Source: Acidobacteriota bacterium
GTDB lineage: Bacteria; Acidobacteriota; UBA6911
Assembly (NCBI GenBank): GCA_016933615.1
Contig: JAFGAO010000057.1
Span: 1-41,075 of the forward strand
Length of the DNA stretch: 41,075 nt
Direction of reading: 5' to 3'
Within the stretch, counting starts at the first letter, position 1. Each line of letters starts with the position of its first letter. The position numbers and the translations under genes were made by a program. Below, piece after piece: positions 1,225 to 40,177 of the stretch. Under the pieces are notes generated by a model. It searched no databases and was not told where the DNA came from. It worked only from the letters and a program-made list of their open reading frames with translations.

Positions 1225-1923
1225 ATGGCAAAAGGCCGAATCCTGGTGATTGACGACGAGGCGGATTTAATAGAACTGGTGCGCTACAACCTGGAACAGG
1301 AGGGGTTCAAGGTGCGAAGCGCGTCCGACGGGGAATCGGGATTGAGCATCGCCATACAGGAAATGCCCGAACTCGTCCTCATCGACCTCATGCTGCCCGG
1401 CATGGACGGCCTGGAGGTATGCCGCTCGCTGCGCGCCGACAGCAGAACCTCCTCCATCCCGATAATTATGCTGACCGCAAAATCGGCGGAATCCGACCGT
1501 ATTGTGGGCCTTGAACTGGGGGCGGACGACTACGTGATCAAGCCTTTCAGCCCGCGCGAGCTGGCGGCGAGGGTGAAAGCCGTGCTTCGCCGGTCACTGC
1601 CTCCGCGCTCCCAATCGCGCGTGATCCACCGCGGAGGCCTGTCGATCGACACCGCACGCCGGGAAGTGAATTTGAACGGAACTCCGGTAGAACTGACAGC
1701 CACGGAATTCAGGCTGCTGCAGTTCTTCGCCGAACATCCCGGGCGCGTCTTTTCCCGCTCCGAGCTTATCGACGCCGCTCTGGGGAGGGAGGTTTCGGTG
1801 GTCGACCGGACCATCGATGTCCACATCACGGGGTTGAGAAAAAAACTGGCGGGCTACAGCGCTTGGATTGAAACGGTGCGTGGATTCGGATATCGATTCC
1901 GGGAAGAGAACGATTTCGAATAG
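1225..1923 (+). CDS. phoB: PhoB-like OmpR-family response regulator (copy 1)
   Basis: This 232-residue two-domain regulator has an N-terminal receiver with acidic pocket D10-D11-E12, phospho-acceptor D54 in LIDLMLPGMDG, the conserved T in MLTAK and K in VIKPFSPRELAAR. The C-terminal winged helix covers about residues 130-228, with LTATEFRLLQFFAEHPGRVF and VDRTIDVHITGLRKKL. This is the standard PhoB layout and length. By family knowledge it is phosphorylated by PhoR under phosphate limitation and binds 11-bp direct repeats. It converges on the kinase gene, with 11 nt between the stops, instead of sharing an operon with it. A paralogue lies at 38769-39467; the two agree at roughly 60% of positions by eye. 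Confidence 0.9.
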   Translation: MAKGRILVIDDEADLIELVRYNLEQEGFKVRSASDGESGLSIAIQEMPELVLIDLMLPGMDGLEVCRSLRADSRTSSIPIIMLTAKSAESDRIVGLELGADDYVIKPFSPRELAARVKAVLRRSLPPRSQSRVIHRGGLSIDTARREVNLNGTPVELTATEFRLLQFFAEHPGRVFSRSELIDAALGREVSVVDRTIDVHITGLRKKLAGYSAWIETVRGFGYRFREENDFE

Positions 1924-1934
1924 GTTTCCGAAGC

Positions 1935-3707
1935 TCAAAAAAGCGGGCTGTTTTCTTTCCTGATGGGCAGGATTACGTTGAATGTGGATCCGCTTCCGAC
2001 CTCGCTTTCGACCGTTATCCTGCCTCCCTGCGCCTCCACGAGATGCTTGACGATGGAAAGTCCGAGGCCGGTCCCGCCGGATTCTCGCGAGCGGGCCGCG
2101 TCGGCGCGATAGAACCTTTCAAAGATCCGGTCCTGCTCCACTTTGGGAATGCCGATCCCGTTGTCGGACACCGACAGGACGATCTCGTTTCCCCTGACGG
2201 CCGCGCGCACCTTGACGACTCCGCCGTCGGACGTGTACCGCACCGCGTTGTCCAGCAGGTTTTCAAGGATCTCCTGGTAGGAATGAAGGTCTCCGAAAAG
2301 GAGGGGCAGATCGTCCGGAAAATCCGCCTTCATCACCAGGTTCTTTCTCTCCGCACGGACCCTGGCCGTATCCAGGCACGGATTCACGATTTCGGCAACA
2401 CTTATGCATCGGGCGTCGCAGGGGAGCTGCCCGGCTTCAATCTGGGCCAGCTTCAGCAGGTCCTCCGTCAGACGGCTCAGCCGCAGCGCATGGTCCCGGA
2501 TGATTTCCAGGAACCGCTTCCGGTTTTTCGTGTCCTCCATGGCTCCGCCCAGGAGCGTTTCCGCGAACCCCTGAATAGCTGTCAGGGGAGTTTTGAACTC
2601 GTGCGAGATGTTGGCGATGAAATCGCGCCTCGCGCGCTCCAGCCTCCGTATTTCGCTGATGTCGTGCAGCACCAGCACCGCGCCGGTCGTGGAGCCCTCC
2701 GAGCGCACCGGGGCCGCGGTAACGGCGAAACTCCGCGTCTTGACCGAACCGACGACCACTTCGCTGCGAATCGCCCCATCAACCGTCAAAACTTTCTTAA
2801 TGAAAGCAATCAGGTCGGGATAGCGCACCAGCTCCATAACCGGCCTCCCGCTCCATCCGTTGTCGGCGGCGTCCATCGCCTTGCAGAAGGCCCGGTTGCA
2901 GTAAATAATGCACTGGTCCCTCCCGACGACGGCGACTCCCTCCTCCATCCCGGCCAGCACGGCCGCGGACTGATTCCGTTCCTCGGTCAGGGTGCGTATG
3001 GTAACGTCCAGTTCTTTGGCGGTCCGATTCAGGCTGGCGGACAGGTCCGACAGCTCATCCCCGTGCCGGTCCCGGGGAAGGGGGCGGAAATCGCCTTCGG
3101 CGACCCTGTGGGAAAATTCCTTCAGGCTCTTGATGCGCCCCGAAATGGTCCGGAAATACAGGAGAGATGCGCCCCCGGCCAGGATCATGATAAAGAGCGA
3201 AATAATCCCGAGGCGGTCCCGGAAAGTGCGCAGCGTCTCGTCGAGGTGGTAGAGCGGTACAGAAAACCGCACGACCAGGGATTTCTCGCTGTCGTAATCG
3301 TACCGCTTGGCCAGATACACCAGGTTGCGCCCCAGAGTGGCGCTATAGCGCTCGGCGCGTCCGGAGCCGTTTAAGAAAGCCTCCCTTATTTCCGGTCTCG
3401 ACGCGTGGTTTTCCATTTTTGCCGGATCCTCCTTCGTGTCTGCGAGCACAATGCCGTCCGAAGAGATGAGCGTAATGCGGACGCCGCTTTGCGCCAGGAT
3501 GTCCGCCCATTGCTGCACGGCGGGAGTGTCGGACGAGGGAGGAAGCCACGCCAGGGCGACCCGGGATAAAGATTCCAGCTGGGTATAGGCCGTATCCAGG
3601 GACTCCTGTCTCAGGGCACGGACGACATACAGGCCAAGAGCCCCTATCACCAGCAGCAGCATCAGGAGGTAAATGATGCCTAATTTCCAAAAAAGTTTGT
3701 TCTTCAT
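1935..3707 (-). CDS. phoR: PhoR-like membrane sensor histidine kinase
   Basis: This 590-residue kinase has TM1 at about 7-30, an extracytoplasmic domain at about 31-165, TM2 at about 166-186 and a HAMP linker to about 240. A PAS domain covers about 245-355 and HisKA carries the phospho-accepting H369 in ANISHEFKTPLTAIQGF. The HATPase domain has its N box in LENLLDNAVRYT, G1 as DNGIGIPK and G2 as GGTGLGLSI. PhoR kinases in many phyla share this TM-sensor-TM-HAMP-PAS-kinase order. Convergence with the PhoB gene and the Pst/PhoU genes in the window support a phosphate-signalling role. As the only histidine kinase here, it may serve both PhoB paralogues. The ligand of the periplasmic sensor is unknown. 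Confidence 0.88.
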   Translation of the reverse strand: MKNKLFWKLGIIYLLMLLLVIGALGLYVVRALRQESLDTAYTQLESLSRVALAWLPPSSDTPAVQQWADILAQSGVRITLISSDGIVLADTKEDPAKMENHASRPEIREAFLNGSGRAERYSATLGRNLVYLAKRYDYDSEKSLVVRFSVPLYHLDETLRTFRDRLGIISLFIMILAGGASLLYFRTISGRIKSLKEFSHRVAEGDFRPLPRDRHGDELSDLSASLNRTAKELDVTIRTLTEERNQSAAVLAGMEEGVAVVGRDQCIIYCNRAFCKAMDAADNGWSGRPVMELVRYPDLIAFIKKVLTVDGAIRSEVVVGSVKTRSFAVTAAPVRSEGSTTGAVLVLHDISEIRRLERARRDFIANISHEFKTPLTAIQGFAETLLGGAMEDTKNRKRFLEIIRDHALRLSRLTEDLLKLAQIEAGQLPCDARCISVAEIVNPCLDTARVRAERKNLVMKADFPDDLPLLFGDLHSYQEILENLLDNAVRYTSDGGVVKVRAAVRGNEIVLSVSDNGIGIPKVEQDRIFERFYRADAARSRESGGTGLGLSIVKHLVEAQGGRITVESEVGSGSTFNVILPIRKENSPLF

Positions 3708-21844: not shown

Positions 21845-22741
21845 TTACAGGTCGATATGCTTGGATTTAACCTTTTGGTAGAGCACATGGATCAGCCCGT
21901 CGGACAAACCCATGATGGGCACGAAAATTTTCTTTACGCCGGACTGCTGCATGACGGTCAGATAGATATCCGCGGCTTCCACGATGACGTCGGCGCGGTC
22001 CGGCCGGAGCCCCAGCACCTTGATACGCTCCTCAACGCTGAAGGACTCCAGGTAATCCCGGAGTTCCTTTATCCGCTTGACCGAGATCGGCTTGCCTTCC
22101 TTCTTGCGCGAGAGCCGGAAAATATTGTTGATGCTGCCGCCGGTGCCCACGGCCGCAAAAGGGCGGAAGGGAGCGACTTTTGCCTTAAGCCAGGTTTTGA
22201 GCCGGGCGAGCTCTTCTTTGGAACGGCCTTTTTTGAGGAAGCGCACCCCGCCGATTTTAAAGGAGCCGGACTCGACGATTCCGTTGCGGGACAGCAGGGT
22301 CACTTCCGCGCTCCCTCCGCCGACATCGATATAAAGCATCGGTTTGTCGGCGCGGAAGGCCCGGCTGATGTGGCTGGAGTAGATGATGGCCGCCTCGCGC
22401 CTGCCCTCGATTATTTCGATATCGACCCCGATTTCCCTGCGAATCCTGTCCGCAATCTCTTTGCCGTTTCGCGCCTCGCGCATGGCCGACGTTGCGCAGG
22501 CTATGGAATCCTGGGCTTTGTAGGCTTTTATAATCAGGCTGAACGCCCTGATGACCGTCGCCAGCTGATCCGCTTTTGCCGACGTGATGCGCTGGTGGGT
22601 GAAAACATCCTCCCCCAGTCGAATCGGCACACGCACCAGAGATTCCTTTACATAGACGGTTTCTCCGTTATTGTCATAAACACTTGAAAGCATTAATCTT
22701 ACGGCGTTTGAGCCGATGTCTATGGCCGCCAGCTTTATCAT
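21845..22741 (-). CDS. ppx: Ppx/GppA-family exopolyphosphatase
   Basis: This 298-residue ASKHA-fold phosphatase has AAIDIGSNAVRLML (5-18) as the first phosphate-binding loop, the conserved ATSAMREARNG (about 93-103), IIEGRREAAIIY, the second loop DVGGGSAEVTLL (about 149-160) and VGTGGSINNIFRLS (about 209-222). It removes terminal phosphate from polyphosphate or the gamma-phosphate from pppGpp. The short form without an HD domain is typical of bacterial Ppx-type enzymes. A Pho-type box lies about 55 nt upstream, and a CHAD polyphosphate-binding protein is encoded 10 kb away, which favours polyphosphate as substrate. Confidence 0.88.
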   Translation of the reverse strand: MIKLAAIDIGSNAVRLMLSSVYDNNGETVYVKESLVRVPIRLGEDVFTHQRITSAKADQLATVIRAFSLIIKAYKAQDSIACATSAMREARNGKEIADRIRREIGVDIEIIEGRREAAIIYSSHISRAFRADKPMLYIDVGGGSAEVTLLSRNGIVESGSFKIGGVRFLKKGRSKEELARLKTWLKAKVAPFRPFAAVGTGGSINNIFRLSRKKEGKPISVKRIKELRDYLESFSVEERIKVLGLRPDRADVIVEAADIYLTVMQQSGVKKIFVPIMGLSDGLIHVLYQKVKSKHIDL

Positions 22742-22793
22742 AAGCCCTCGTTAAATGACTTTCATAAAAATTCTGATGATCCCGGCTCGTTCC

Positions 22794-22821
22794 GGTCAAG
22801 TCAAGTTAGGGTAAAGTTAAG
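22794..22821 (-). promoter_or_regulatory. Candidate Pho box before ppx
   Basis: On the minus strand, CTTAAC (22821-22816) and CCTAAC (22810-22805) are excellent half-sites 11 bp apart, with a degenerate TTGACC (22799-22794) in the same phase. The ppx ATG is at 22741. No convincing -10 occurs at the usual 10-nt distance, so exact promoter placement is open. Confidence 0.5.
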
Positions 22822-22842
22822 AATCCATAAAAGCAGGCAATG

Positions 22843-23343
22843 CTAGAACGGCCAGAAATTGCTGTCGTTCCAGACCTGTTCCTTCAGATCCTCGTTGAGT
22901 TTGTACAGCAGGCGGTGGTGGGTTCGTTCCCAGTCGGCCAATGACTGATACATCTCTTTTTCATTGGGATCCGTGGCTTCATCCGCCCTCTTCTGGTAGA
23001 CCTCGATGGCGCGGTTTTCGAAATCGATTGCGGCCGATATGGCTGCGGCCTCGAAACCCGCGGCCGAGATTTCATTTTTTACCTGCTCGCTCAGGATCAT
23101 TGCGGCCTCGGTGTCGTCTACCGAATGTGGGAGTTCGCCTTTGGCGAATTTGCCGTTTTTTTCGAACTCGGCGAACTGCCTGGAGAGGAACTCTACGTGT
23201 GCCGCCTCTTCCCCGGCCATGATCGTGAATATCTCGCGCACGGCATCGCTGCCGGCCTGGCGGGCTGCCGCGGTGTAAAAAGCGTTTCCCCTGCGTTCAA
23301 GCAGGATAGCGGTTTTCAGGATATCTTCCGCTGTTTTTGTCAT
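22843..23343 (-). CDS. Ferritin-like / rubrerythrin-type di-iron protein
   Basis: This 166-residue four-helix protein has ligand patterns typical of ferritin-like domains: LERRGNAFYTAAA (E and Y in helix 1), GEEAAHVEFLSRQF (ExxH in helix 2), FENRAIEVYQKRADE (helix 3) and WERTHHRLLYKLNEDL (helix 4). There is no rubredoxin Cys4 domain, so it is a rubrerythrin-like protein lacking electron-transfer iron, probably for peroxide reduction or iron handling. The ATG at 23343 is used; a TTG four codons upstream is possible. It has no obvious link to phosphate beyond position. Confidence 0.8.
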   Translation of the reverse strand: MTKTAEDILKTAILLERRGNAFYTAAARQAGSDAVREIFTIMAGEEAAHVEFLSRQFAEFEKNGKFAKGELPHSVDDTEAAMILSEQVKNEISAAGFEAAAISAAIDFENRAIEVYQKRADEATDPNEKEMYQSLADWERTHHRLLYKLNEDLKEQVWNDSNFWPF

Positions 23344-23397
23344 GATGCCCCCCAAACTTTCCTAATAAAAATGTCTGATTATCCGGACCGGGCGCGA

Positions 23398-25005
23398 TCA
23401 CACCTTCCGTTTTTTATCCGGGGTTTCCACATCAATGGGCACTTCCGGGATGGTCAATATGAGCAGAAAAGCCGCCAGCGCGCAGACGGCGTTTATTATA
23501 AATACGGTTCTGAGGCTTGCTTTCAGGGAATCGCGCAGCGCCCGCACCGTCCGTTCAAAAAGCTCCCCGGCCCTTTCCCCGGCCGGCGCCATGGCCCGCT
23601 CGAGCGCCTCCATCGCTTCCTGCGATAGCAGGACCCGGGAATCCACCAGGGGCCCCAGGGCGGCTTCATCCGCGATCCGCTTCAATTCGGCAGGCAATCT
23701 GGTCTCGAGGGCCCTTTCATAGGACGCGTTCATGGCCGACCCCAGGATCGCGGGCCCTATCGCGCCTCCCATGAACACAAAAAAGAACATGGCGCCCACG
23801 GCCACCCCCAGCAGGCGTTTGGGAACGGAAAACTGAGCCACCAGGGTGTTCATCGTGGGAATCGATCCCAGGCCGAAACCCGCCAGGGACGTGATCAGGA
23901 CTCCGAGCCACGCGGGGGTATCGGCATCGAACGGGATCATGGCGAACATGGCCGAGGCCAGGATGCCGTAGCCGGTAATGTACATCCATTTGTACCTTTT
24001 GGTTCTGGCCAGCACGTATCCGGTCGGCACGCCGATGAAGGCCATCAGGATCCCGAAAGGAGTGATGATCTGCCCGCTCAGGGTCGCGCTGGTTTCCTGC
24101 ACGCCCTGCAGAAAAAGAGGGTAATACCGCAGCACACCCAGAAAACCGAAATAGGATATGAATCCGGCCAGCGCTGCCGTCAGAAATCTGCGGTTTCGGA
24201 AAACCTGAGGGTCCAGCATGGGCTCTTCCTTCCGGTTTTCCAACCGGAGGAAGGCGGCCCAGAAAGCCAAAGAGACCGCAAACAATCCGATAATTCTCGC
24301 GGAAGTCCATGCGTATTCGCTTCCGGCCCAGGAGAAACCGATAATCAATGTTCCCGAGGCTGCCGCCAGCAGAAGGGAGCCGGGCAGATCGAAGCGATGA
24401 TCCGACTTCTTTGAGACCCTGGGGATCGTCCAGAGCATAAGCAGCCCGCTCGTCAGGGCCATCAGCACGGAAATCCAGAAGAAATACCGCCAGCTGAGGC
24501 TGTCCGTTATCATTCCCACCAGGGTTGGGATCGTGAGGGCCGCAATACCGGCTGGGATCTGAAGCAGGCCGCTCCACCGGCTCCTTTCGGCAGGAGCGTA
24601 GAGATCCCCGATTACCGAGAAACACAACGGAGTCAGGGCCGCCTGCCCCGAAGAAAGGACGACGCTGGCGGCGATGAAAAACACGTAGTCCCGGCTCAGG
24701 CCCGCCATAACGGCGCCGGCCATGTAGAGAACGATGGCCGTCAGAAGCAGTCTCCGCCTGCCGTGCATGTCGGACAGTTTTCCGAACACCAGGGTGGCGA
24801 TGGCGGCAGCCAGGGAGGGCAGTGAAATCGCCCAGGAGAACAGGGCCATGCCGTCGAGATCCGCCGCGATCTTGGGCGCGGTCACGCTGGAGCCGCGGAA
24901 AAAGTAAATGGATGCGAAATAGGTGCAGAATATCGTTACCAAGCCTAGGGTGGCGTGGGTCGTCCTGCCGGGCACTTTGGAATCCGCGCTTTCGTAAATT
25001 GGCAT
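23398..25005 (-). CDS. MFS drug/proton antiporter, DHA2 (14-helix) type
   Basis: This 535-residue transporter has about 14 membrane helices. The family motif A is visible as GKLSDMHGRRRLLLTA (about 74-89), and the LYAPAERSRWSG loop and proline/glycine-rich helix 5 (PAGIAALTIPTLVGMITDS) fit the DHA2/EmrB group. A charged loop of about 70 residues before the last helix (ETRLPAELKRIADEAALGP onward) is also typical. It exports drugs or toxic compounds with proton exchange. The ATG at 25005 has CGGAG 6 nt upstream and removes 23 Ala/Gly-rich leader residues. No link to the phosphate genes is evident. Confidence 0.82.
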   Translation of the reverse strand: MPIYESADSKVPGRTTHATLGLVTIFCTYFASIYFFRGSSVTAPKIAADLDGMALFSWAISLPSLAAAIATLVFGKLSDMHGRRRLLLTAIVLYMAGAVMAGLSRDYVFFIAASVVLSSGQAALTPLCFSVIGDLYAPAERSRWSGLLQIPAGIAALTIPTLVGMITDSLSWRYFFWISVLMALTSGLLMLWTIPRVSKKSDHRFDLPGSLLLAAASGTLIIGFSWAGSEYAWTSARIIGLFAVSLAFWAAFLRLENRKEEPMLDPQVFRNRRFLTAALAGFISYFGFLGVLRYYPLFLQGVQETSATLSGQIITPFGILMAFIGVPTGYVLARTKRYKWMYITGYGILASAMFAMIPFDADTPAWLGVLITSLAGFGLGSIPTMNTLVAQFSVPKRLLGVAVGAMFFFVFMGGAIGPAILGSAMNASYERALETRLPAELKRIADEAALGPLVDSRVLLSQEAMEALERAMAPAGERAGELFERTVRALRDSLKASLRTVFIINAVCALAAFLLILTIPEVPIDVETPDKKRKV

Positions 25006-25267
25006 GGAGGCTCCGATTGGGCTGCGTGCCGCCCCCGTTCCCGGGGCGCATACCGCAGCGGTATCCGTCCGCATTCCGAAGGAAGCGAGCTTCCTCCCGT
25101 TCTCTTGCGAGCCTACAGTATAAACGCAGCCGGCGAACGAACCTCGACCTATTTTTCAATTGCGTCCTTTTTTATCGACCATCAACATTGGAATTGAGCA
25201 ACAATGCCCCGTACCGCCGGAGGAAGGCCTCCCCGGGAGAGGGAACAAGCGAAACAAACGGAGCTCC

Positions 25268-26140
25268 CTATCCGAAGCGTCCGGTGATGTAGTCTTCCGT
25301 CTGCTTGTTCGATGGGTTGGTGAAAAAGCGGCTGGTGAGATCATACTCGATCAGTTCGCCGAGGCAGAAGAAGGCGGTGTGCTCGCTGACGCGTGCGGCC
25401 TGCTGCATATTGTGGGTTACGATTACGATGGTGTAGCGGTTCCTGAGCTGGGCGATCAATTCCTCGATGCGGGCGGTGGCTATGGGATCGAGCGCCGAAC
25501 AGGGTTCGTCCATGAGAAGGGCCCTGGGCTGGGTCGCCAGCGCGCGCGCGATGCAGAGGCGCTGCTGCTGTCCCCCGGAAAGCGCCAGCGCCGATTTCCG
25601 AAGATCGTCTTTGACCTCGTCCCACAGAAACGCCGAATGCAGGCATTCTTCAACAATGGAATCCAGTTCGGAACGGCTGTGCACTCCCTGCAGGCGCGGA
25701 CCGTAGGCGACGTTGTCGTAGATGCTTTTGGCGAAGGGATTGGGTTTCTGAAACACCATCCCGACCTGCTGCCGCAGGTTGACGAGGTTGACGCGTTTGT
25801 CGTACACATTCTGCCCGTTTACGGTGAGAAAGCCTTCGGTGCGGATGTTGGGGATCAGATCGTTCATGCGGTTGATGCTGCGCAGAAAAGTGCTCTTTCC
25901 GCACCCGCTGGGGCCGATGATCGCGGTTACGGTGCGGGCGTAGATATCCATCGTAATATCTTTCACACCGATGGTTTTTCCGTAAAAGAGAGTGAAATCC
26001 TTGGACCGGATCACGCTGCCGGCTTCCCCGGATTCGGCCGTGGTATCTCGTGCGGCATTCTCCACGGCGCGGGCCGGTCTCCGAAGAAACGAGGCGTCCG
26101 CTCCATCCAGGCTCAGTTCCTGACTTTGATATTCTGTCAT
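25268..26140 (-). CDS. pstB: Phosphate ABC transporter ATPase PstB
   Basis: This 290-residue ABC ATPase has Walker [11 protein letters not shown]-loop [19 protein letters not shown] (a PstB hallmark), signature [16 protein letters not shown], Walker [14 protein letters not shown] and H-loop [18 protein letters not shown]. It drives phosphate import through PstC/PstA. About 45 residues precede the ABC domain (starting at [12 protein letters not shown]), longer than in most PstB. The ATG at 26140 is used, with GTG at 26146 as an alternative. It is the last gene of pstSCAB, 22 nt after pstA. PhoU does not follow here but lies at 39503-40177. Confidence 0.95.
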
Positions 26141-26162
26141 AACCACTCATCCGTTCTTTAGA

Positions 26163-27842
26163 TTACAACCCGCGCAGCTTCCGGCTGGACCGGGAACGAA
26201 TCCAGATCGCTATTATATTAAGGGTCAGGACCAGTGCAACCAGCGTCATGACCATACCGTACTGCTTGTGGGGAACGAGCATGGCCAGCCGGTCTCCGAC
26301 CGCTATGTCGTAACTGCCGTAGGAGAGAGCCCGTGTCGGCTCCAGTATGGAATCGGGAACGGGCCCGAAGGCGATGGCCCCGGTAAAAAGAATTGGAGCC
26401 GTTTCGCCCGCGGCGCGGCTGAGGCTCAGTATGATGCCGGTAAAAATGCCCGGCGCGGCCGCCGGCAGAATCACCGTCATGAAAGACCGGAACTGGCCTG
26501 CCCCGAGAGCAAGCGCCGCTTCTTTATAGTTGATAGGAACGGCCCGGATCGCCTCTTCGCTGGCCCGGATAATCACCGGAAGAACGAGCAGGCCCAGCGT
26601 TAAGGAAGCGGCCAGTATGTTGGGCTTCGTCAGTTTGTCCGCGGCTTCGGCGGAAAAGATGCCGAGCGTGCCGTGGCCGAATTCGCCGATGACGGGGAAA
26701 AGGAACAGGACGAAGAAGGCCATGCCGAAAAGGCCGAAAACGATGCTGGGGACTCCCGCAAGCGTGTTGATGCAGGTCCGGATAACGCGGACGGCGATGT
26801 TGTCGCCCGTACATTCAACGAGAAAGGCGGCGGATATGATTCCCAGAGGAATTGCGAAAAGCATCGAGAAAAATGTCAGGGCCAGCGTCCCCAGAATTTC
26901 GGGTCCGCAGCCGCCGAAATAATGGCCGTCGGTGCTCCCGTCCATAAAATAGCGCCAGTAGAAGGTGAACCGGGGTTGAAAAAGCTTTTCCAGATTCGTT
27001 TCCACATAATCGAAGACCGGCTCCAGCTCCGTACCGGCGAAAAATTCCCTTCGCGCCCTCGTCTCTTTGACCATCGGGCGGCCGGGCTCGGTCTCGACCC
27101 AATCTTCGCTCCAGAGGAGTCTGTGAAGCTCTCTTTCAACGGCATCCCAGCGGGTGGCGCCGTACTGGTCCATCGTCAGCGCCGGCGCCGGCTCCCCGGG
27201 GCCGGGCCCGAACAGCTTATGCAGCGCTTCCCGGACTTCGCCGAAGGCTTCGGCATACTGTTCCCGTCTGGAAAGATCGACGGATGCGGCAATCCGCGAG
27301 TAGCTTTCGGCCGTTTCGAAGTAGGCCTCGATGGGGGTGCCGCCGAAATCAGGATCGGCCCGCGATTGAAGCACGCATTGCAATCTGCTTTGAACGTACT
27401 CCTTGTCCCGGCTTTCGAATGCATCGAGCAGGGCATCCCGGAGGTCCTTCGCCCTGGCGCGCTGCGCCGAATAGCGTTCGCCCGAGATGCCCGCGGCCCT
27501 CAGGTAGCTGCCGTAGTCGCGATAGGCGCCCCGAACCTCGTCGGCAAGGTGCTCGGTGTCTATGCCCCGGCGGAACCGGTTTGCAGCTTCGTAAACGAAG
27601 GCGCGGGCTTCTTCAATTTCCCCGTTTTCTCTCTGAATCCTTTCGGCGTCGCCGTGCCCGAAAACGACCAGCTGCATTTCCCTGAATTCATTGGTCCCTT
27701 GGAAGAAGACGGCTTTTAACCCTCGAGCCATCATGGGGAACAGAACCACGACAAGGATAAAAACCATCAGGCACACCGAGAACATGCAGGAGGCCGTGAA
27801 GCACTTGTCGCGGAATTCCCTGGGGAAAATGCGGAATTTCAT
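26163..27842 (-). CDS. pstA: Phosphate ABC permease PstA with large periplasmic insert
   Basis: The C-terminal part (about 313-555) is a normal PstA permease. It has ILGTLALTFFSMLFAIPLGI, then NTLAGVPSIVFGLFGMAFFV, the coupling-loop region SEEAIRAVPINYKEAALALG, ILPAAAPGIFTGIILSLSRA and GETAPILFTGA. The protein is 559 residues, whereas PstA is commonly about 280-300. The extra length is a largely hydrophilic segment from about 45 to 310 between TM1 (about 18-38) and TM2. It is rich in Glu, Arg and predicted helices (DLRDALLDAFESRDKEYVQS, then REQYAEAFGEVREAL) and should face the periplasm. The insert is in frame, with base composition like its neighbours. It starts 1 nt after the pstC stop. 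Confidence 0.9.
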   Translation of the reverse strand: MKFRIFPREFRDKCFTASCMFSVCLMVFILVVVLFPMMARGLKAVFFQGTNEFREMQLVVFGHGDAERIQRENGEIEEARAFVYEAANRFRRGIDTEHLADEVRGAYRDYGSYLRAAGISGERYSAQRARAKDLRDALLDAFESRDKEYVQSRLQCVLQSRADPDFGGTPIEAYFETAESYSRIAASVDLSRREQYAEAFGEVREALHKLFGPGPGEPAPALTMDQYGATRWDAVERELHRLLWSEDWVETEPGRPMVKETRARREFFAGTELEPVFDYVETNLEKLFQPRFTFYWRYFMDGSTDGHYFGGCGPEILGTLALTFFSMLFAIPLGIISAAFLVECTGDNIAVRVIRTCINTLAGVPSIVFGLFGMAFFVLFLFPVIGEFGHGTLGIFSAEAADKLTKPNILAASLTLGLLVLPVIIRASEEAIRAVPINYKEAALALGAGQFRSFMTVILPAAAPGIFTGIILSLSRAAGETAPILFTGAIAFGPVPDSILEPTRALSYGSYDIAVGDRLAMLVPHKQYGMVMTLVALVLTLNIIAIWIRSRSSRKLRGL

Positions 27843-27843
27843 A

Positions 27844-28806
27844 TCAGGCCTCTTTTTTTCTACGGACTCTCGCGAGCAGGTGTTCGCTGATCAGGTTCAG
27901 TCCGAATGTAAAAACCAGGAGAAGAATCCCGATGGAAAAAAGAGCCTGATAATGGACGGAACCCTGCACCGTTTCTCCCATATCCCCCGCGATTGTGGCG
28001 GTCATGGTGCGTACCGACTTGGATAAATCCCACCACGGGGAGGGAATCTGGGTGGCGTTTCCGGAGGCCATCCACACAACCATGGTTTCGCCGACCGCAC
28101 GCATGACGCCCAGGATAACCGCCGCGATGATTCCGCTGTGCGCCGCCGGGATAACGACCCGGATCATGGCTTCCGCACGGGTGGACCCGAGCCCGTAAGC
28201 GGCTTCGCGAATCTCCATGCCGACCGCGGACATGGAATCCTCGGCAACGCTGATGATCGTCGGAAGAGCCATTACGGCCAGAATTACCCCGGCGTTCAGG
28301 ATGTTGGTCCCGGTATCGAAACCGAAGCGGGTCTGCATCCAGGGAGCCAGAACCAGGACGGCAAAAAAACCGAAAGCCACCGAGGGAATGGCGGCAAGAA
28401 TTTCTATCACCGGCTTTATGATCTGGCGCACCCTGAACGAAGCCACATCGCTTAGCCAGACGGCCGAGAACAGGCCGACGGGCACGGCGACCAGCATGGC
28501 CACCAGCGTAACGTAGGCCGAACCGCCCAGGATGGCCAGAACCCCGTATTCCGGGTGTTCGCGGGATTCCGGATACCAGTGGGTACTGGAAAAAAACTGT
28601 TTGACGTAGGGTCCGGCCAGAAATCCCGAGGCCTCGCGGATGATGAAGAAAAATATAAGCAGCACCGCGACGACGGAAAGGAAGGTGATGAAGAACAGAA
28701 AAGAGCGGCCGAGCCTGTCGAATACGTATCCCCGCAAATCCTGTCCCGGGGAAAGAAGAAGCGGCCGGTTGAATCCGGCCGCTTCCTGCGGTCTTGAGGA
28801 ATGCAT
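27844..28806 (-). CDS. pstC: Phosphate ABC permease PstC
   Basis: This 320-residue integral membrane permease has about six helices. Family landmarks are the periplasmic WYPESREHPEYGVLAILGGS, the helix AYVTLVAMLVAVPVGLFSAV, the conserved EILAAIPSVAFGFFAVLVLA, the coupling loop SAVGMEIREAAYGLGSTRAE, VIPAAHSGIIAAVILGVMRA and GETMVVWMASG. With PstA it forms the membrane channel of the high-affinity phosphate importer. The ATG at 28806 is chosen (GGAG 10 nt upstream); TTG at 28812 is possible. It lies 73 nt after pstS. Confidence 0.94.
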   Translation of the reverse strand: MHSSRPQEAAGFNRPLLLSPGQDLRGYVFDRLGRSFLFFITFLSVVAVLLIFFFIIREASGFLAGPYVKQFFSSTHWYPESREHPEYGVLAILGGSAYVTLVAMLVAVPVGLFSAVWLSDVASFRVRQIIKPVIEILAAIPSVAFGFFAVLVLAPWMQTRFGFDTGTNILNAGVILAVMALPTIISVAEDSMSAVGMEIREAAYGLGSTRAEAMIRVVIPAAHSGIIAAVILGVMRAVGETMVVWMASGNATQIPSPWWDLSKSVRTMTATIAGDMGETVQGSVHYQALFSIGILLLVFTFGLNLISEHLLARVRRKKEA

Positions 28807-28879
28807 CGGCAACTCACTCCGGACGGCACCTACAATCCGTAGGCTTCAGCGTCATCATTGGGGGGGGCGAATCCCTGCA

Positions 28880-29716
28880 CTAGTAGGCCGTCACAGGAAC
28901 AAACCCCTTGGCTTCTATTATTTCCTGGCCTTCTTCGGTCAGGTAGAACGTGCAGAACTCGTGCACCAGGGTGCCGAGTTCGGGATATCCGTTGGTGAAC
29001 AGAAAAAGCGGACGGCTGATCGGATAGACGCCTTTGGCGATTGAAGACCGGGTCGGCATTATTTTGTCGATCTCGAGAGCCTTGACGCTGCTGTCCAGAA
29101 AGCCGAGGCCGACATAGCCGATGGCTCCCGTAGTGGATTTCACCCTGGAGTGCGCCTGGGGATTTGAGTTCACATATTCCACGTTCGCGGCCATTTTTTC
29201 ACCATTCATGACCAGGCCTTCGAAAGTTTCATATGTTCCCGAGGAGGTGTCCCGGCTGATAGGAACGATAGCCTGGCTGGGCCCGCCGAGATCCTTCCAG
29301 TTTTTGATCTTGCCGGTATATATGCCTCGAACCTGTTCTCGGGTCAAAGCCTTTACCGGATTGGAAGGGTAGACGATGACGCAGACGCCGTCCATGGCAA
29401 TGGCGTGCGCAACCGGAAGAAAAGGTTTCGCACCTGTAACTGCGGTCTTGTATTCCTTGTCCTTCATGAATCGGCTCATCATGGCAATGTCGCATCGCCC
29501 GTCGACCAGGGCCGCAGCGCCGTTGCCGCTGCCGGTTTTGTTTACCGTGATGGAAACCTTGGGGTACATCTTCTGGAAAGCTTCAGCAAAGGCATCCGAG
29601 ATCGGGCCTACCGTCGTGGATCCTTCCAGAAGCAGCGTTCCCTCGCGAGGCGCCGCTACCACGAAAACCAGGGAGATCAGCAACACCACGATTCCTGCAG
29701 ACAATAGCTTTTTCAT
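28880..29716 (-). CDS. pstS: Phosphate-binding periplasmic protein PstS
   Basis: This 278-residue protein has a signal peptide at about 1-22 (MKKLLSAGIVVLLISLVFVV). The mature fold carries phosphate-contact motifs LLEGSTTVGPISDAF (about 29-43), NKTGSGNGAAALVDGRCDIA (about 59-78), SRDTSSGTYETFEGL and TTGAIGYVGLGF. It captures phosphate in the periplasm for PstCAB. It is the first gene of the operon, preceded by a four-half-site Pho box with a fitting -10, and CCGGAGAA lies 6 nt before the ATG. Confidence 0.95.
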   Translation of the reverse strand: MKKLLSAGIVVLLISLVFVVAAPREGTLLLEGSTTVGPISDAFAEAFQKMYPKVSITVNKTGSGNGAAALVDGRCDIAMMSRFMKDKEYKTAVTGAKPFLPVAHAIAMDGVCVIVYPSNPVKALTREQVRGIYTGKIKNWKDLGGPSQAIVPISRDTSSGTYETFEGLVMNGEKMAANVEYVNSNPQAHSRVKSTTGAIGYVGLGFLDSSVKALEIDKIMPTRSSIAKGVYPISRPLFLFTNGYPELGTLVHEFCTFYLTEEGQEIIEAKGFVPVTAY

Positions 29717-29891: not shown

Positions 29892-30977
29892 TTAGAACTT
29901 GAAGGCGACGTCGAGCTGCACCCGGTTGTAATTCGGCGTATCGTACTCCGAGTCCCGTTCGTTGAGGAAGTAGGACATACTGGCCGTCCAGGCCTTGGCT
30001 ACCTGAACGTCGAAACCGAATTCGCTTCCACGACCGTCCGTCCCCCCTCCGATGAAATCGGAATCGGTGAAGATTCCCAGAACAGCGTCCGCTTCAATGA
30101 CCCTGTAATTGTAGCGGAATGCCCAGGAGCCGGGATCTTTGGTTTTTCCAACAGTCGCTCCGACCAGCCAGCCGGTATCCCATTTCACATTTTCAGCAAC
30201 ATTTCTTACATAGTCGAAAAAGAAGCTGAGCGGTATATCCCCGGCTTTGAATCCAAGCTCGGCGAATAATTCCATGATCTTGTAGTCGTAGAGGTAACCG
30301 TCTTCGCCGAGGGTGTTTCCGAAGGAATCCTCGTCGTCAAAGATCGGATCGTAGCCCCTGAGGTTGCCGTAGTGATAGTAGCTGAAGCCTCCGACCATGT
30401 TGGCATTATCCGAGATCTTTATATCCACACCAGCCTGTCCGCCGAAAAGCCAGGTATCACAATCGGAGCTTCTTTCTTCAACCCAGAAACCGCCGACATT
30501 GGTAAAAAATTCAACGCTGTCGTTCGACACGGCGTAGGTCAACGCAGCGCCTTCCGGGTTCAGATCCCCGTCCCAGATCAGTTCGGTGCCGCCGGGCATA
30601 TGGAAGGGATTCTTTATCTTTCCGGCTACGATATTGAGTCCGGGCGCCTTGTCCGAGTGCAGATCCAAGTAAGCCAGATCGAGCCGGATGTCCTTGGTTG
30701 AAAATCCGCTGTCGAGGCTTTGGTTCGTGGAAATCGGGTCGTCCGACCCGCTCGCAAGCTGAAATCCGAGTTTTATGTTGTCTGTCGGCTTCGCTTCCAC
30801 GCCTATCCGGGCCCGGATGCGGTGCCGGTTTCGGGCATCCTGATCCTCTACCTTGATAGTCTCGTGGCGATAGCGCAGGTCGCCCTTGATCTTGACGACT
30901 TCCCACCAGTCAGCCGCACCGACTATACCGGGCAAAAGTAAAAAAACAAGGCATACTCCAATAATTACCTTCTTCAT
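29892..30977 (-). CDS. Putative phosphate-responsive outer-membrane porin
   Basis: This 361-residue barrel has a signal peptide MKKVIIGVCLVFLLLPGIVG then AADWWE. The mature part alternates amphipathic strands and acidic turns (IKGDLRYRHETIKVEDQDAR, AGKIKNPFHMPGGTELIWDG, FNSFSYYHYGN-like strands) and ends in the Phe-terminated strand VQLDVAFKF required by BAM. It resembles the putative-porin family related to OprO/OprP. Its position directly upstream of pstS on the same strand, and its own Pho-type box, support a role in anion or phosphate passage through the outer membrane. CAGGAGGA precedes the ATG. Confidence 0.8.
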   Translation of the reverse strand: MKKVIIGVCLVFLLLPGIVGAADWWEVVKIKGDLRYRHETIKVEDQDARNRHRIRARIGVEAKPTDNIKLGFQLASGSDDPISTNQSLDSGFSTKDIRLDLAYLDLHSDKAPGLNIVAGKIKNPFHMPGGTELIWDGDLNPEGAALTYAVSNDSVEFFTNVGGFWVEERSSDCDTWLFGGQAGVDIKISDNANMVGGFSYYHYGNLRGYDPIFDDEDSFGNTLGEDGYLYDYKIMELFAELGFKAGDIPLSFFFDYVRNVAENVKWDTGWLVGATVGKTKDPGSWAFRYNYRVIEADAVLGIFTDSDFIGGGTDGRGSEFGFDVQVAKAWTASMSYFLNERDSEYDTPNYNRVQLDVAFKF

Positions 30978-31189: not shown

Positions 31190-31408
31190 ATACGGATAAT
31201 TATAGTATCAGCGCCACAGGCGACAAAACCGGCTTGAATGCCTCTGGTAAAATTACCTAAATTCCCTTATTACAACAGATATGTTGCAGCCTGTACGATG
31301 GGGCTTTGTGCTATTATAAATTTCTTTTAACAGTTAAACCTTTTGAGCGCTTCTTGCGGACAGGCAAGGGCGCAGGAAAACAACAATCCTGTTCTTGATG
31401 CATTTTCA

Positions 31409-32740
31409 ATGACGTTCGAACCTCCTTATAAGCGCCCCTGCCTCCTGTTTTTGCTCCTTTTTTTATTTCCCGCAGCCCCGGCATTCGCCCAACGGGACAG
31501 GGGTACAAAGACTCCCTCCTGGCTTCACCTGTCCTTCGAGCAGCGCACCCGTTACGAACATCTCACCAACTCCTTCCGTCCGAACATATCCGGAACCGAA
31601 AAGCATTTCCCCCTCCGGACGAGGCTGAGAACGGAAATCGGAGAAGCCGGCAGGCCGGCCCGTTTCCTTATAGAGCTTCAGGATTCACGAACTCTTTACG
31701 AAAAAGAAAACCTGTTCTCAGCCCGCGCGAACATCAACGAGCTCGATTTGCTGCAGGGCCAGCTGCAGTTCAATCTGGACAATCTCCCCCTGAGAGGCAT
31801 AAAAAGCCGGATCGTTCTCGGTCGGTTCACTATGGATCTGGGCCATCGCCGCCTGGTGGCCCGCAACAACATGCGCAACACCACAAATGCTTTTGACGGC
31901 GTATCCTGGACTCTGGCGGGAGACTGGGACTGGGAGATACGAATGTTTCTCACACGCCCGGTCACGATCGACCCCTACCGTCCGGACTCCGGCAGCCGGC
32001 GATATCTCTGGGGCGCTTACCTTGAATCCGCGCGATTCCACCGGCTGATGCTGGACGCGTATTATCTCGGTTTCCACGACACGGAAAACCCCGCCTCGAG
32101 GCAAAGGCATTCGACTGTGGGAGGACGTCTTTACAGGATGCCGGCGCCCGGCACGATGGACTATGAAATGGAATCCGCCTGGCAGTTCGGCAAAAACGGG
32201 ACGCAGGATCATTTCGCCCATTTCCAGCATGGAGAACTGGGCTTCAGTTTCAATTTGACATGGGAACCGAGACTGTCCGTGCAATACGACTACGCAAGCG
32301 GAGACGGCAGTCCGGAGGACGGCAGATCCGGACGGTTCGATTCTCTTTACGGGGCCAGGTCTTTTGAATACCCGCCCACAGGTATTTACGGCCCCATATA
32401 CCGTTCCAACATAACTGCGCCCGGAATCCGCATCGAGGCGAACCCGGCCGGCAATCTGCGTATAGCGACCGCATACAGGGCGTTGCGGCTGGCCAGCGCC
32501 AGGGACGCCTGGGCGGGGTCGGGGTTTCAGGATTCAACAGGAAGAGCGGGAAAATACCTGGGGCAGAATTTGGAAGTTCGGCTGCAGTGGCAGGCAAACC
32601 GCATAGTGTCTCTGGAATCGGGCTATGCGCGCTTCTTCAAAGGCTCCTATCCCGAACTTGTCCCGGGCAGCCCGGATCCGGAAGATTCCCATTACTTTTA
32701 TATCGCAACGGAGCTGAAAGCCGGATTGCTGCCCCATTGA
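31409..32740 (+). CDS. Alginate-export-like outer-membrane barrel protein
   Basis: This 443-residue protein has a signal peptide MTFEPPYKRPCLLFLLLFLF then PAAPAFA. The mature part matches the alginate_exp (AlgE-like) pattern: an early LSFEQRTRYEHLTNSF strand, LRTRLRTEIGEAG, LIELQDSRTL, the signature GRFTMDLGHRRLVARNNMRN (about 160-180) and DGVSWTLAG. Many later strands contain Tyr, Arg and Asp. In other bacteria this fold exports or admits anionic polymers or small anions. Here it is divergent from the porin, so passage of a charged phosphorus compound is conceivable but unproven. The start at 31409 is chosen for the signal peptide; the frame is open from a TTG at 31343. Confidence 0.72.
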   Translation: MTFEPPYKRPCLLFLLLFLFPAAPAFAQRDRGTKTPSWLHLSFEQRTRYEHLTNSFRPNISGTEKHFPLRTRLRTEIGEAGRPARFLIELQDSRTLYEKENLFSARANINELDLLQGQLQFNLDNLPLRGIKSRIVLGRFTMDLGHRRLVARNNMRNTTNAFDGVSWTLAGDWDWEIRMFLTRPVTIDPYRPDSGSRRYLWGAYLESARFHRLMLDAYYLGFHDTENPASRQRHSTVGGRLYRMPAPGTMDYEMESAWQFGKNGTQDHFAHFQHGELGFSFNLTWEPRLSVQYDYASGDGSPEDGRSGRFDSLYGARSFEYPPTGIYGPIYRSNITAPGIRIEANPAGNLRIATAYRALRLASARDAWAGSGFQDSTGRAGKYLGQNLEVRLQWQANRIVSLESGYARFFKGSYPELVPGSPDPEDSHYFYIATELKAGLLPH

Positions 32741-32848: not shown

Positions 32849-34414
32849 ATGGAAAATATTCGCGATAAAAAAGAAAACGGGGATGCGACCGACATTATAA
32901 AGCCTGAAGCTGGTCCGAATTGCGGCCGAAGCAAAGAGCTCAAGAATGCCGATCCAATGCTCCGCCGTCTGCGCCCCATTCTACCGGAGGGGTGGAATGT
33001 GATTTGGGTGGGAAAAGAGACGCGCCCCTTCAACGTCCTGGACAGCTACGACGGCTCGTTGCTGCAGTCCGGATCTTTGCTGCTGGAATTTCCGGAGAAA
33101 GAGGCGACGGCCGAACTCCTGCCGAAAAGGATTGAGGCGAGACTCGATGGCCCGCTTCCCCGAAACGTGTTCGAAACCGATTTTTTACCCGACGGTGCAT
33201 TGAGAAAAATCGTGCAGGGTCGCGCCGGCGCCTGGAGGCTTCGAGTGTGCGCCCGGGGAATGGAGACGGCCGAACGGTACAGGATTGAGAATGAGGATCG
33301 GAAGGGCGTCGCGCGTTTGCAGCTCCGCAGATTAAAGTGCAGGAACAGCCCGGCCGTCATTGACGTCCGGTTGGGCCCTTACCGCGGTTACGGCCGGGAT
33401 ACGGCGCCTATCCGGGCGCTTCTCGAGGAAATAGCTCCGTTCCCTGAAGCGACAGCGCTGTTCCGGAGCTCGCTGCCCGCTTCGATGCGAAGCCTGATGA
33501 AACCCCCTCCCGAAGTCCGGCCGGACCAGGGAGACCGCACGGCGGTTTCGGACCTGGCGCGATACATTCTCGACCGGGTTCGACATTTCGAGCCGGGAGT
33601 GGTCGAAGACGAGGATCCGGAAATTCTGCATCAGTATCGGGTTTCTCTCCGGCGCATGCGGTCTCTGACGGCGCTGCTGAAACAGGTTTTCACCGGCCAG
33701 GAACGGGAGACGATCCGGGTCTGTTTGAAACAGGCCATGCAGATTACCAACCGCCTCCGCGATCTGGACGTGCAGATCAACGAGGTACGAGCGCTTGGCC
33801 CGTCCATCCCCGATGCGCTGCAAACGGGTCTCGATCAAATCATGCAGCGACTGAGAGGGGAACGGGAACTGGAGTTTCAATCGGTGCGCAAGAGACTGGA
33901 GGCGGCGGAATTCGAGGCGCGTTTCGGGCCGGTGTCCGCGATTCTGGACGAAAACAAAGGCCCTGTTCCCAAAAAAATCTCAGACCTTCTCGCACCAGCC
34001 ATCCTAAAGCGGTACCAAAAGATCGCGCAGGATACGGCCAAAATCGAAGGGGAGATCAAACCGAATCAGCTGCACGGGTTGCGGGTATCCTTCAAGAAGC
34101 TCCGCTATCTGGTGGATTTCTTCCCTCAACTCCTCTGCCGGGATCCCGTCAAGCCGTTACTGAAAGACCTGAAGAAACTGCAGACCCTGTTGGGCCGATA
34201 CAACGATCTCTGCGTGCTGGAGGCGCTCCTTCTGGGCCAGGCGCGGCAGCACCCGGGAGACAGCGCCGCGCTTATGACGCTAGGCGCCATCATCATGCAG
34301 GCGCATCAAAAGCGGGACAGGCTTGCAGGAAAAAGCATCGCGGCCGTGCGTGATTTCTGTTCGGAAGAACGGGGCGATTTATTGCCAAACCTGCTGGGAG
34401 GAAGCGAAGATTGA
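32849..34414 (+). CDS. CYTH-like/CHAD polyphosphate-binding protein
   Basis: This 521-residue cytoplasmic protein has two parts. Residues about 45-195 look like a degenerate CYTH (triphosphate tunnel) domain: NVLDSYDGSLLQSGSLLLEF parallels the YYDT..RL...G..LR motif, and ERYRIEN and VIDVRLG strands follow. Residues about 235-500 are a CHAD domain with ILHQYRVSLRRMRSLTALLK, LRDLDVQINEV, the second half LHGLRVSFKKLRYLVDFFPQ and LQTLLGRYNDLCVLEALLL. CHAD helices carry paired His/Arg/Lys that bind polyphosphate, and CHAD proteins attach to polyphosphate granules. The CYTH part seems to lack many catalytic Glu residues, so it may only bind. The stop overlaps the TTG start of a ParA gene. Confidence 0.85.
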   Translation: MENIRDKKENGDATDIIKPEAGPNCGRSKELKNADPMLRRLRPILPEGWNVIWVGKETRPFNVLDSYDGSLLQSGSLLLEFPEKEATAELLPKRIEARLDGPLPRNVFETDFLPDGALRKIVQGRAGAWRLRVCARGMETAERYRIENEDRKGVARLQLRRLKCRNSPAVIDVRLGPYRGYGRDTAPIRALLEEIAPFPEATALFRSSLPASMRSLMKPPPEVRPDQGDRTAVSDLARYILDRVRHFEPGVVEDEDPEILHQYRVSLRRMRSLTALLKQVFTGQERETIRVCLKQAMQITNRLRDLDVQINEVRALGPSIPDALQTGLDQIMQRLRGERELEFQSVRKRLEAAEFEARFGPVSAILDENKGPVPKKISDLLAPAILKRYQKIAQDTAKIEGEIKPNQLHGLRVSFKKLRYLVDFFPQLLCRDPVKPLLKDLKKLQTLLGRYNDLCVLEALLLGQARQHPGDSAALMTLGAIIMQAHQKRDRLAGKSIAAVRDFCSEERGDLLPNLLGGSED

Positions 34415-38768: not shown

Positions 38769-39467
38769 CTATTCAAGCGCGTTTTCGTCCCGGAATTTAT
38801 AGCCGAATCCGCGGATGGTTTCTATCCACTTGTTGCAGGCTCCGAGCTTTCTCCGCAATGCCATAATATGGACGTCGATGGTCCGGTCCAGAACGGTTAC
38901 GTCTCTTCCGAGCACTCCCTCGATGATCGCATTGCGCGAAAAGACATGCCCCGGGTGGGACGCCATGAACTGCAGCAGGCGGTATTCCGTGGCCGTCAGT
39001 TCCACCACATCCCCGTTGCAGGAAACTTCGTGGCTGTTCAAATCGATGGAAAGATCCCCCCGCCGTATCACGGATATATTCCGCTGGAATCCGCGCGTGC
39101 GCCGCAGCAGGGCTTTGATGCGCGCGGCGAGTTCCCTGGGACTGAACGGTTTGGTGATGTAGTCGTCGGCCCCGAGCTCCAGGCCGACAACGCGGTCGGA
39201 TTCGGAAGCCCTGGCGGTCAGCATGATTATGGGAATGTGAGCCGTCTCGGCCCTGGACCTCAAGGAGCGGCAGACTTCGAATCCGTCGATGCCGGGAAGC
39301 ATCAAATCGATAATGATCACATCGGGCTTTTTCTGTATGGCCCGGGACAGGCCCGATTCCCCGTCGCAGGCGCTTATGACTTCAAAGCCTTCTTTGCCGA
39401 GGTTATAGCGGACCAGCTCGATCAGGTCTTCTTCGTCGTCAATCGCTAAAACCATGCCTTTGGACAT
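38769..39467 (-). CDS. phoB: PhoB-like response regulator (copy 2)
   Basis: This 232-residue protein has the same length and domain plan as 1225-1923: receiver with D10-D11-E12, D54 in IIDLMLPGIDG, MLTAR and ITKPFSPRELAAR, then a winged helix with LTATEYRLLQFMASHPGHVF and VLDRTIDVHIMALRRKL. All phosphorylation residues are intact. It lies 35 nt downstream of phoU on the same strand and is probably co-transcribed with it. No histidine kinase gene accompanies it. The recognition helix region is nearly the same as in copy 1, so both may read the same 11-bp boxes. Confidence 0.9.
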   Translation of the reverse strand: MSKGMVLAIDDEEDLIELVRYNLGKEGFEVISACDGESGLSRAIQKKPDVIIIDLMLPGIDGFEVCRSLRSRAETAHIPIIMLTARASESDRVVGLELGADDYITKPFSPRELAARIKALLRRTRGFQRNISVIRRGDLSIDLNSHEVSCNGDVVELTATEYRLLQFMASHPGHVFSRNAIIEGVLGRDVTVLDRTIDVHIMALRRKLGACNKWIETIRGFGYKFRDENALE

Positions 39468-39502: not shown

Positions 39503-40177
39503 TTAATGAACGCCTCTCAGGTCGCTTTCCTGCTGATGACGCACTTCCCGGCCCTCTACCAGGTAGATGACCTCTTCCGCAATATTGGTTGCATGATCCC
39601 CTACCCGCTCCAGGTGCCGCGAGATCAGGATCAATGCCAGGCTGCGCTCTATGGTCCCGGGATCCGCCATCATGTAAGTCAAAAGGACCCGGAAAATTTT
39701 GTCCCTGAAAGCGTCTACCTTATCTTCCTGTTCCATAACGCGATTCGCCAGGGAGCAGTCCCTGTTCACCAGCGCTTCGAGACTGTCCCGAACCATTTTT
39801 TCGGCGATTTCCCCCATCATCGGCAGATCCACCAGGGGCCGCAGCGACGGGGACTTCAATATAGGGGAGGCCTTTTGAATGATGCTGACCGCCTGATCCC
39901 CGATCCGTTCCAGTTCCGAAGCGATACGGGAGGCCATGAAAAGAAACCGGACATCGGTACCCATGGGCTGCTGCAATGCGGTCAATTTAACGGCGCTGTC
40001 GTCGATTTCAATCTGCAGCTCGTTGACCTCCTTCTCCTTTTTTACGACCATTTCTCCGAGGGATTCATCCCTTTCTATCAGGACCCGCAGCGCCGTCTGG
40101 ACCATGGACTCCGACAGCCGGCCCATCAGGAGCAGTTTTTGGAGCAATTCCTGGATTTTTTCTTCAAAGTTGCGCAT
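39503..40177 (-). CDS. phoU: Phosphate-signalling protein PhoU
   Basis: This 224-residue all-helical protein has two PhoU repeats. The first has LLLMGRLSESMVQTALRVL and MGTDVRFLFMASRIASELER, followed by IGDQAVSI. The second has MVRDSLEALVNRDCSLANRV and ALILISRHLERVGDHATNIA, followed by EEVIYLVEG. The E/D..ER(I/V)GD(Q/H)A motifs are the metal-cluster ligands typical of PhoU. It mediates the inhibitory signal from the PstSCAB transporter to PhoR and controls phosphate uptake. In many bacteria it ends the pst operon; here it is 13 kb away and leads phoB copy 2. Confidence 0.93.
   Translation of the reverse strand: MRNFEEKIQELLQKLLLMGRLSESMVQTALRVLIERDESLGEMVVKKEKEVNELQIEIDDSAVKLTALQQPMGTDVRFLFMASRIASELERIGDQAVSIIQKASPILKSPSLRPLVDLPMMGEIAEKMVRDSLEALVNRDCSLANRVMEQEDKVDAFRDKIFRVLLTYMMADPGTIERSLALILISRHLERVGDHATNIAEEVIYLVEGREVRHQQESDLRGVH

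Follow-up and report, generated by a model that had tools for sequence, protein, structure and literature searches.

The window, by which we mean the whole stretch of DNA analysed (41,075 nucleotides of an Acidobacteriota bacterium), carries on its minus strand, in this order, genes for a porin (29892..30977, PF16930), PstS (28880..29716, 278 aa, PF12849; a lipobox-like motif was not seen), PstC (27844..28812, 322 aa, TIGR02138 at 272.2 bits), PstA (26163..27842) and PstB (25268..26146, 292 aa, PF00005), with pstS-pstC-pstA-pstB contiguous. The window also encodes PhoU (39503..40177, minus strand, 224 aa), a response regulator (38769..39467, minus strand), an OmpR/PhoB-type response regulator (1225..1923, plus strand, PF00072 and PF00486) and a histidine kinase with HAMP and PAS domains (1935..3707, minus strand). 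Divergent from the porin gene lies an alginate-export type outer-membrane protein (31343-32740, plus strand, PF13372; 71% identity in G008, the second insert-bearing genome of the family), and a CHAD-domain protein (32849-34414, plus strand, PF05235) also lies near the phosphate genes. On the other side, pstB is followed by an MFS transporter and rubrerythrin both in the window (21845-25074) and in G008 (L031:10854-15656), beyond which stands Ppx/GppA in the window and a PHO4 phosphate transporter in G008.

As the first-pass annotation had proposed, pstA is a single reading frame, running on the minus strand from an ATG at 27842 to 26163 through 559 codons with no stop inside. Its product passed TIGR00974, the NCBIfam PstA equivalog (203.1 bits against a cut-off of 193.45, residues 293-551), and scored 147.2 bits with the NCBIfam PstC model, below the cut-off of 196.45. 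TM1 occupies residues ~17-35 by hydropathy (27738..27794; helix 5-42 in the model), the next hydrophobic segment is at residues 324-342, and the permease core spans residues 302-559 (26166..26939, PF00528 at 330-557). The window PstA shares the permease core fold and the pstS-pstC-pstA-pstB neighbourhood with E. coli PstA (PDB 9k3s, 9k3x, 9k3y; TIGR00974), onto which the model superposes with Z 21.7 and rmsd 5.5 over 273 aligned residues (9k3x_A), but the E. coli protein lacks the ~259 residues that the window PstA has between TM1 and core. Because residue 310 of the window PstA aligns with E. coli residue 77, the insert was sized at ~259 residues (43-301; 26940..27716, minus strand), delimited by alignment with relatives, so that the extra segment proposed earlier is indeed present and is followed by an ordinary core. 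The expectation that a usual PstA is about half as long also held, E. coli PstA having 296 aa and nine ordinary control PstA of relatives 285-320 aa. Pseudomonas PstA and PstC are likewise long. The window PstSCAB is predicted to import phosphate.

The insert is hydrophilic (mean hydropathy -0.69, 35 K/R, 48 D/E). Since the N-terminus is positive, with 5 K/R and 2 D/E in 16 residues, the loop after TM1 probably faces the periplasm, as PstA homology would also predict, and we therefore treat the insert as a putative extracytoplasmic domain. The earlier remark that it shows no compositional break was roughly borne out, with GC3 staying at 0.67-0.76 across five segments while total GC ranged over 0.50-0.64.

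AlphaFold2, run on full-length PstA with 76 sequences, gave a mean pLDDT of 91.1 with most insert blocks at 92-98, and the insert folded alone reached a mean pLDDT of 95.0 and a pTM of 0.85. Prediction of the insert alone thus returned an ordered domain, where disorder had been considered beforehand. The description "helix-rich" was right but incomplete, as the model is a helical domain that also has four short strands in its base (46-49, 244-249, 258-263, 291-294). None of the 342 PDB matches that Foldseek listed for the insert up to E 10 had E <=0.001, profile comparison of the insert with the sequences of PDB chains reached a best, unconvincing E of 0.05, and a fold search with full-length PstA matched the core only. 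VIA-align 2 returned bundle-type matches to the tip of the domain only, with Z up to 9.8. The tip superposes on the four-helix bundles of the periplasmic sensor domains of McpS (2yfb, Z 9.8, rmsd 2.6, 97 residues), PilJ (7zjr, Z 7.6) and TorS (3o1h, Z 7.0), a likeness that lacks sequence support and is equalled in score by copper-storage proteins and pectin methylesterase inhibitors; Z below ~13 is common among helical bundles in this comparison and may reflect only a common arrangement. A known fold for the insert is neither shown nor excluded by Foldseek and VIA-align 2.

In a scan of named genomes 129 stretches gave a match, of which 109 were confirmed as relatives and 80 kept, and the insert is accordingly far from being peculiar to this genome, the alternative that the first-pass annotation had allowed for. 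The 80 kept relatives, nearly all from metagenome assemblies, bear 13 phylum names (the label is missing from some rows), chiefly Planctomycetota, Kiritimatiellota, Verrucomicrobiota, Lentisphaerota, Acidobacteriota and Aminicenantota. All 76 aligned relatives contain the insert, and its length is strongly conserved. In a short form, found in 35 of the 76, the insert has 167-169 residues, and 33 of these have exactly 168; a long form has 259-271 residues (32 of 76) and intermediates have 222-241 (9 of 76). The difference between long and short forms falls at a single site, residues 98-188 of the window PstA (27279..27551, minus strand), where the short form has a 91-column alignment gap. The window PstA is thus a long form, in which a helical bundle of 91 residues (model helices 96-116, 121-143, 147-162 and 172-187) is nested as a tip in a conserved base of ~168 residues. 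In most short-form loci (e.g. L032:1985-3127) PstC reaches ~375-400 aa and carries additional hydrophobic residues near 155-219; long-form operons encode a PstC of ~325 aa.

The base is common to all relatives seen and adjoins the transport core, and it holds most of the invariant and near-invariant residues of the insert. These include the YGATRWD motif (residues 227-233; 27144..27164, minus strand), in which Y227, G228, T230, R231, W232 and D233 are invariant or at least 90% conserved in the 76 sequences, and a further conserved, membrane-proximal stretch covers residues 290-311 (26910..26975, minus strand; P-x-x-T-F-Y-W ... H-x-F-G-G). Across 30 long forms mean identity was 72% in the core, against 48% and 51% in the two parts of the base and 33% in the tip, which is the least conserved part, 4 of its 91 columns reaching 90%. 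For the window compared with G008, which is 74% identical to it over the insert, dN/dS (Nei-Gojobori) was 0.147 for residues 44-304, 0.187 for residues 98-188 and 0.021 for the core, ratios that are rough as dS was 0.9-2.0 and the first 43 residues were saturated. The insert evolves faster than the core, yet is under purifying selection; it is less fixed than the core but does not vary freely, as had also been considered.

Lentisphaeria-type and Pontiellaceae PstA carry additions at the same site as the long-form tip. Homology of these tip expansions was considered and rejected, hhalign giving E 0.049 and a probability of 1.1% for the long-form against the Lentisphaeria-type tip, and E 0.34, no relation, for the long-form against the Pontiellaceae tip; profile comparison showed no relation between the latter two tips either. 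By sequence comparison, the tip is a hot spot, at which two other lineages place unrelated sequence. Two further proteins (L072 and L078) carry the long-form tip (hhalign E 1.6e-21) on PstA cores that fall in the short-form group, suggesting that tips are exchanged or lost. As unrelated additions share the site and L072/L078 carry the long-form tip, the base appears to be old and the tip to have been exchanged or lost.

An extra domain after TM1, at the same place in PstA, is already known as DUF3333 (PF11812), and the insert might be a divergent member of that family. PF11812 was matched at E <=0.01 by 34 of 76 members, the best match having E 1.1e-7; the cut-off was exceeded in one of ten examined (L079). 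The window PstA scored 12.1 bits against a gathering score of 26.5, over residues 8-46 only. Among nine examined matches, those of the window and six relatives went no further than TM1 and its border (ending at profile position 43-47), one (L096) reached profile position 64 and one (L089, residues 2-100) profile position 98. With hhalign, DUF3333-type PstA aligned in the core only, so that at the profile level, for the four DUF3333 sequences of one genus that were compared, the two inserts showed no relation in sequence. That the insert is a divergent DUF3333 is very improbable, though the two may be remotely akin. The genome itself carries a second pst operon on another contig (C88; L030:809-5517) with a DUF3333-type PstA of 442 aa, a 462-aa PstC and a 347-aa PstS. 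No Pfam family covers the insert domain and no description of it was found in the open-licence PMC literature, which was covered in part. Taken together, the insert is a real, widespread and undescribed domain, without a named family, on a known transporter.

Within the window's own phylum the domain was found in 7 of 297 sampled genomes by protein search and 7 of 294 by profile; in the window's family it occurs in 2 of 15, the window's own genome and G008, whereas other genomes of the genus have an ordinary PstA without the insert. The five insert-bearing genomes of the phylum outside the genus encode a 448-aa PstA with a shorter insert. The identities of neighbouring genes to congeners divide the locus in two. 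In their aligned parts, PstS, PstC, PstA and PstB were 34-57% identical to six genus or family genomes other than G008 (PstB was found in 5 of the 6 genus or family genomes compared) and 55-80% identical to the three best Planctomycetota loci each; for PstC the values were 36-42% against 66-72%. PhoU, in contrast, was 88% identical to G008, 75-79% to five congener or family genomes and 39% to the best Planctomycetota locus. The regulators were 63-74% and the kinase 56-63% (three genomes) identical to genus or family genomes, and the porin 63-64% to congeners (three genomes) against 48-50% to Planctomycetota; for all of these genes identity to Planctomycetota loci was at most 52%. Congeners carry an ordinary pst operon among the same neighbour genes.

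In a core-column tree, a quick one that gave long-branch warnings, 77 insert-bearing PstA grouped together (SH-aLRT 97), apart from 11 controls that all came from the window's phylum, and the long-form group of 31 rows comprised 29 Planctomycetota, the window and G008 (L042 in the tree). A more careful tree of PstS, PstC, PstA core and PstB joined (25 rows) placed the window pair beside a Sedimentisphaerales locus (L052; 95/95), inside Planctomycetota, and a tree constrained to unite the 21 planctomycete rows to the exclusion of this pair was rejected (p-AU 0.0088). An assembly error or mis-binning was considered and rejected, as two separate assemblies of the genus share the gene order and the flanking genes match congeners. 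These data show that the window lineage acquired its whole pstSCAB from a donor resembling Planctomycetota: as pstSCAB is foreign and PhoU, the regulators and the kinase are native, the lineage's own operon was exchanged where it stood and the control genes were kept. In the searched part of the genome (an assembly ~82% complete), no ordinary pst operon was found beyond the DUF3333-type one on C88.

Because pstSCAB is foreign as a unit, unlike the native genes for PhoU, regulators, kinase and porin, the partners of the domain are most simply sought in PstS and PstC. The first-pass annotation had named PstS, the outer membrane and a sensor such as PhoR as possible contacts; PstS is now the best guess, PhoR has become unlikely and contact with the outer membrane is weakened, though some chance of it persists. 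We propose that the domain may act within PstSCAB by holding or orienting PstS over the PstC/PstA gate, the likeliest reading, though one that we judge evenly balanced between right and wrong and that draws on analogy. The base would sit next to the transport core, with the loop on the side where PstS docks, and the domain would hold or orient soluble PstS above the gate, which could aid the handover of phosphate and link docking with the cycle of transport. The partner PstS proteins look soluble, a loose, uncurated lipobox-like match being present in 5 of 58 complete proteins, and such a holder would therefore increase their local concentration at the gate. A precedent is offered by the maltose system, in which the MalF P2 and MalG P1 loops contact the binding protein, going by the titles of two studies cited in PMC3150292 (its references 89 and 98). 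MalF P2 is itself a sizeable folded insert that projects into the periplasm from a type I importer permease (PMC3150292). MalF P2 is, however, a different loop (MalF residues 91-271), presumably unrelated to the insert, and it was not seen in the fold searches with the insert. The tip cannot be a strict docking surface, as it is the least conserved part. Whole-operon transfer would also fit a domain that makes no contact with PstS, since the components of one complex are often transferred jointly, and other members of the genus thrive with a PstA that lacks the insert; both points count against this reading.

A rival is a structural role, in which the domain would stabilise or assemble the PstA-PstC pair and its outer gate and leave PstS untouched. 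The best-conserved residues are those in the base and near the membrane, the tip is variable or missing, and the foreign pstC travelled with pstA, as such a brace would predict. Ordinary PstA nevertheless assemble without such a domain, even within the genus, and a brace alone leaves the repeated tip expansions unexplained, and we consider it a distinctly less probable role than the docking of PstS.

It is more doubtful still that the domain forms a bridge to the outer membrane, a porin or the cell wall that channels phosphate from porin to PstS. Among loci with at least 1.5 kb upstream, a porin gene does immediately precede pstS in 14 of 21 with the long form and in 13 of the 26 others (27 of 47 in total), and the window shows the same order. 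The porin of the window lineage is native, however, and hence was not transferred along with the domain, porins are absent from many short-form operons, and it is hard to picture how a 168-residue base could span the whole periplasm. Least probable of these roles is a contact with the periplasmic part of a PhoR-type kinase: a kinase, two response regulators and PhoU do share the region with the pst genes, but all are native and common to congeners whose PstA lacks the insert. Because kinase and porin are native and pstSCAB was acquired, a dedicated partner of either kind is argued against. In E. coli the Pho signal is passed on by PstB and PhoU on the cytoplasmic side, and PhoR lacks a significant periplasmic domain (PMC5775613).

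The docking of PstS could also be one half of a bolder, improbable scheme, in which the insert would represent a new family of extracytoplasmic modules, borne by PstA in a dozen or more phyla. Its conserved base would gate the docking of PstS, its exchangeable tip would be a helical bundle that senses a ligand or a state, and the importer would be a self-contained cassette with its own periplasmic sensor, transferable to another organism's Pho network.

The Pst system is among the best-studied importers, mainly in bacteria with a short PstA. A conserved PstA domain of 168-270 residues, present in many phyla that have no laboratory models, would mean that the docking or control of PstS differs there. 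The combination of a foreign pstSCAB with native PhoU, kinase and regulators constitutes a natural experiment for mapping the contacts through which the phosphate signal passes.
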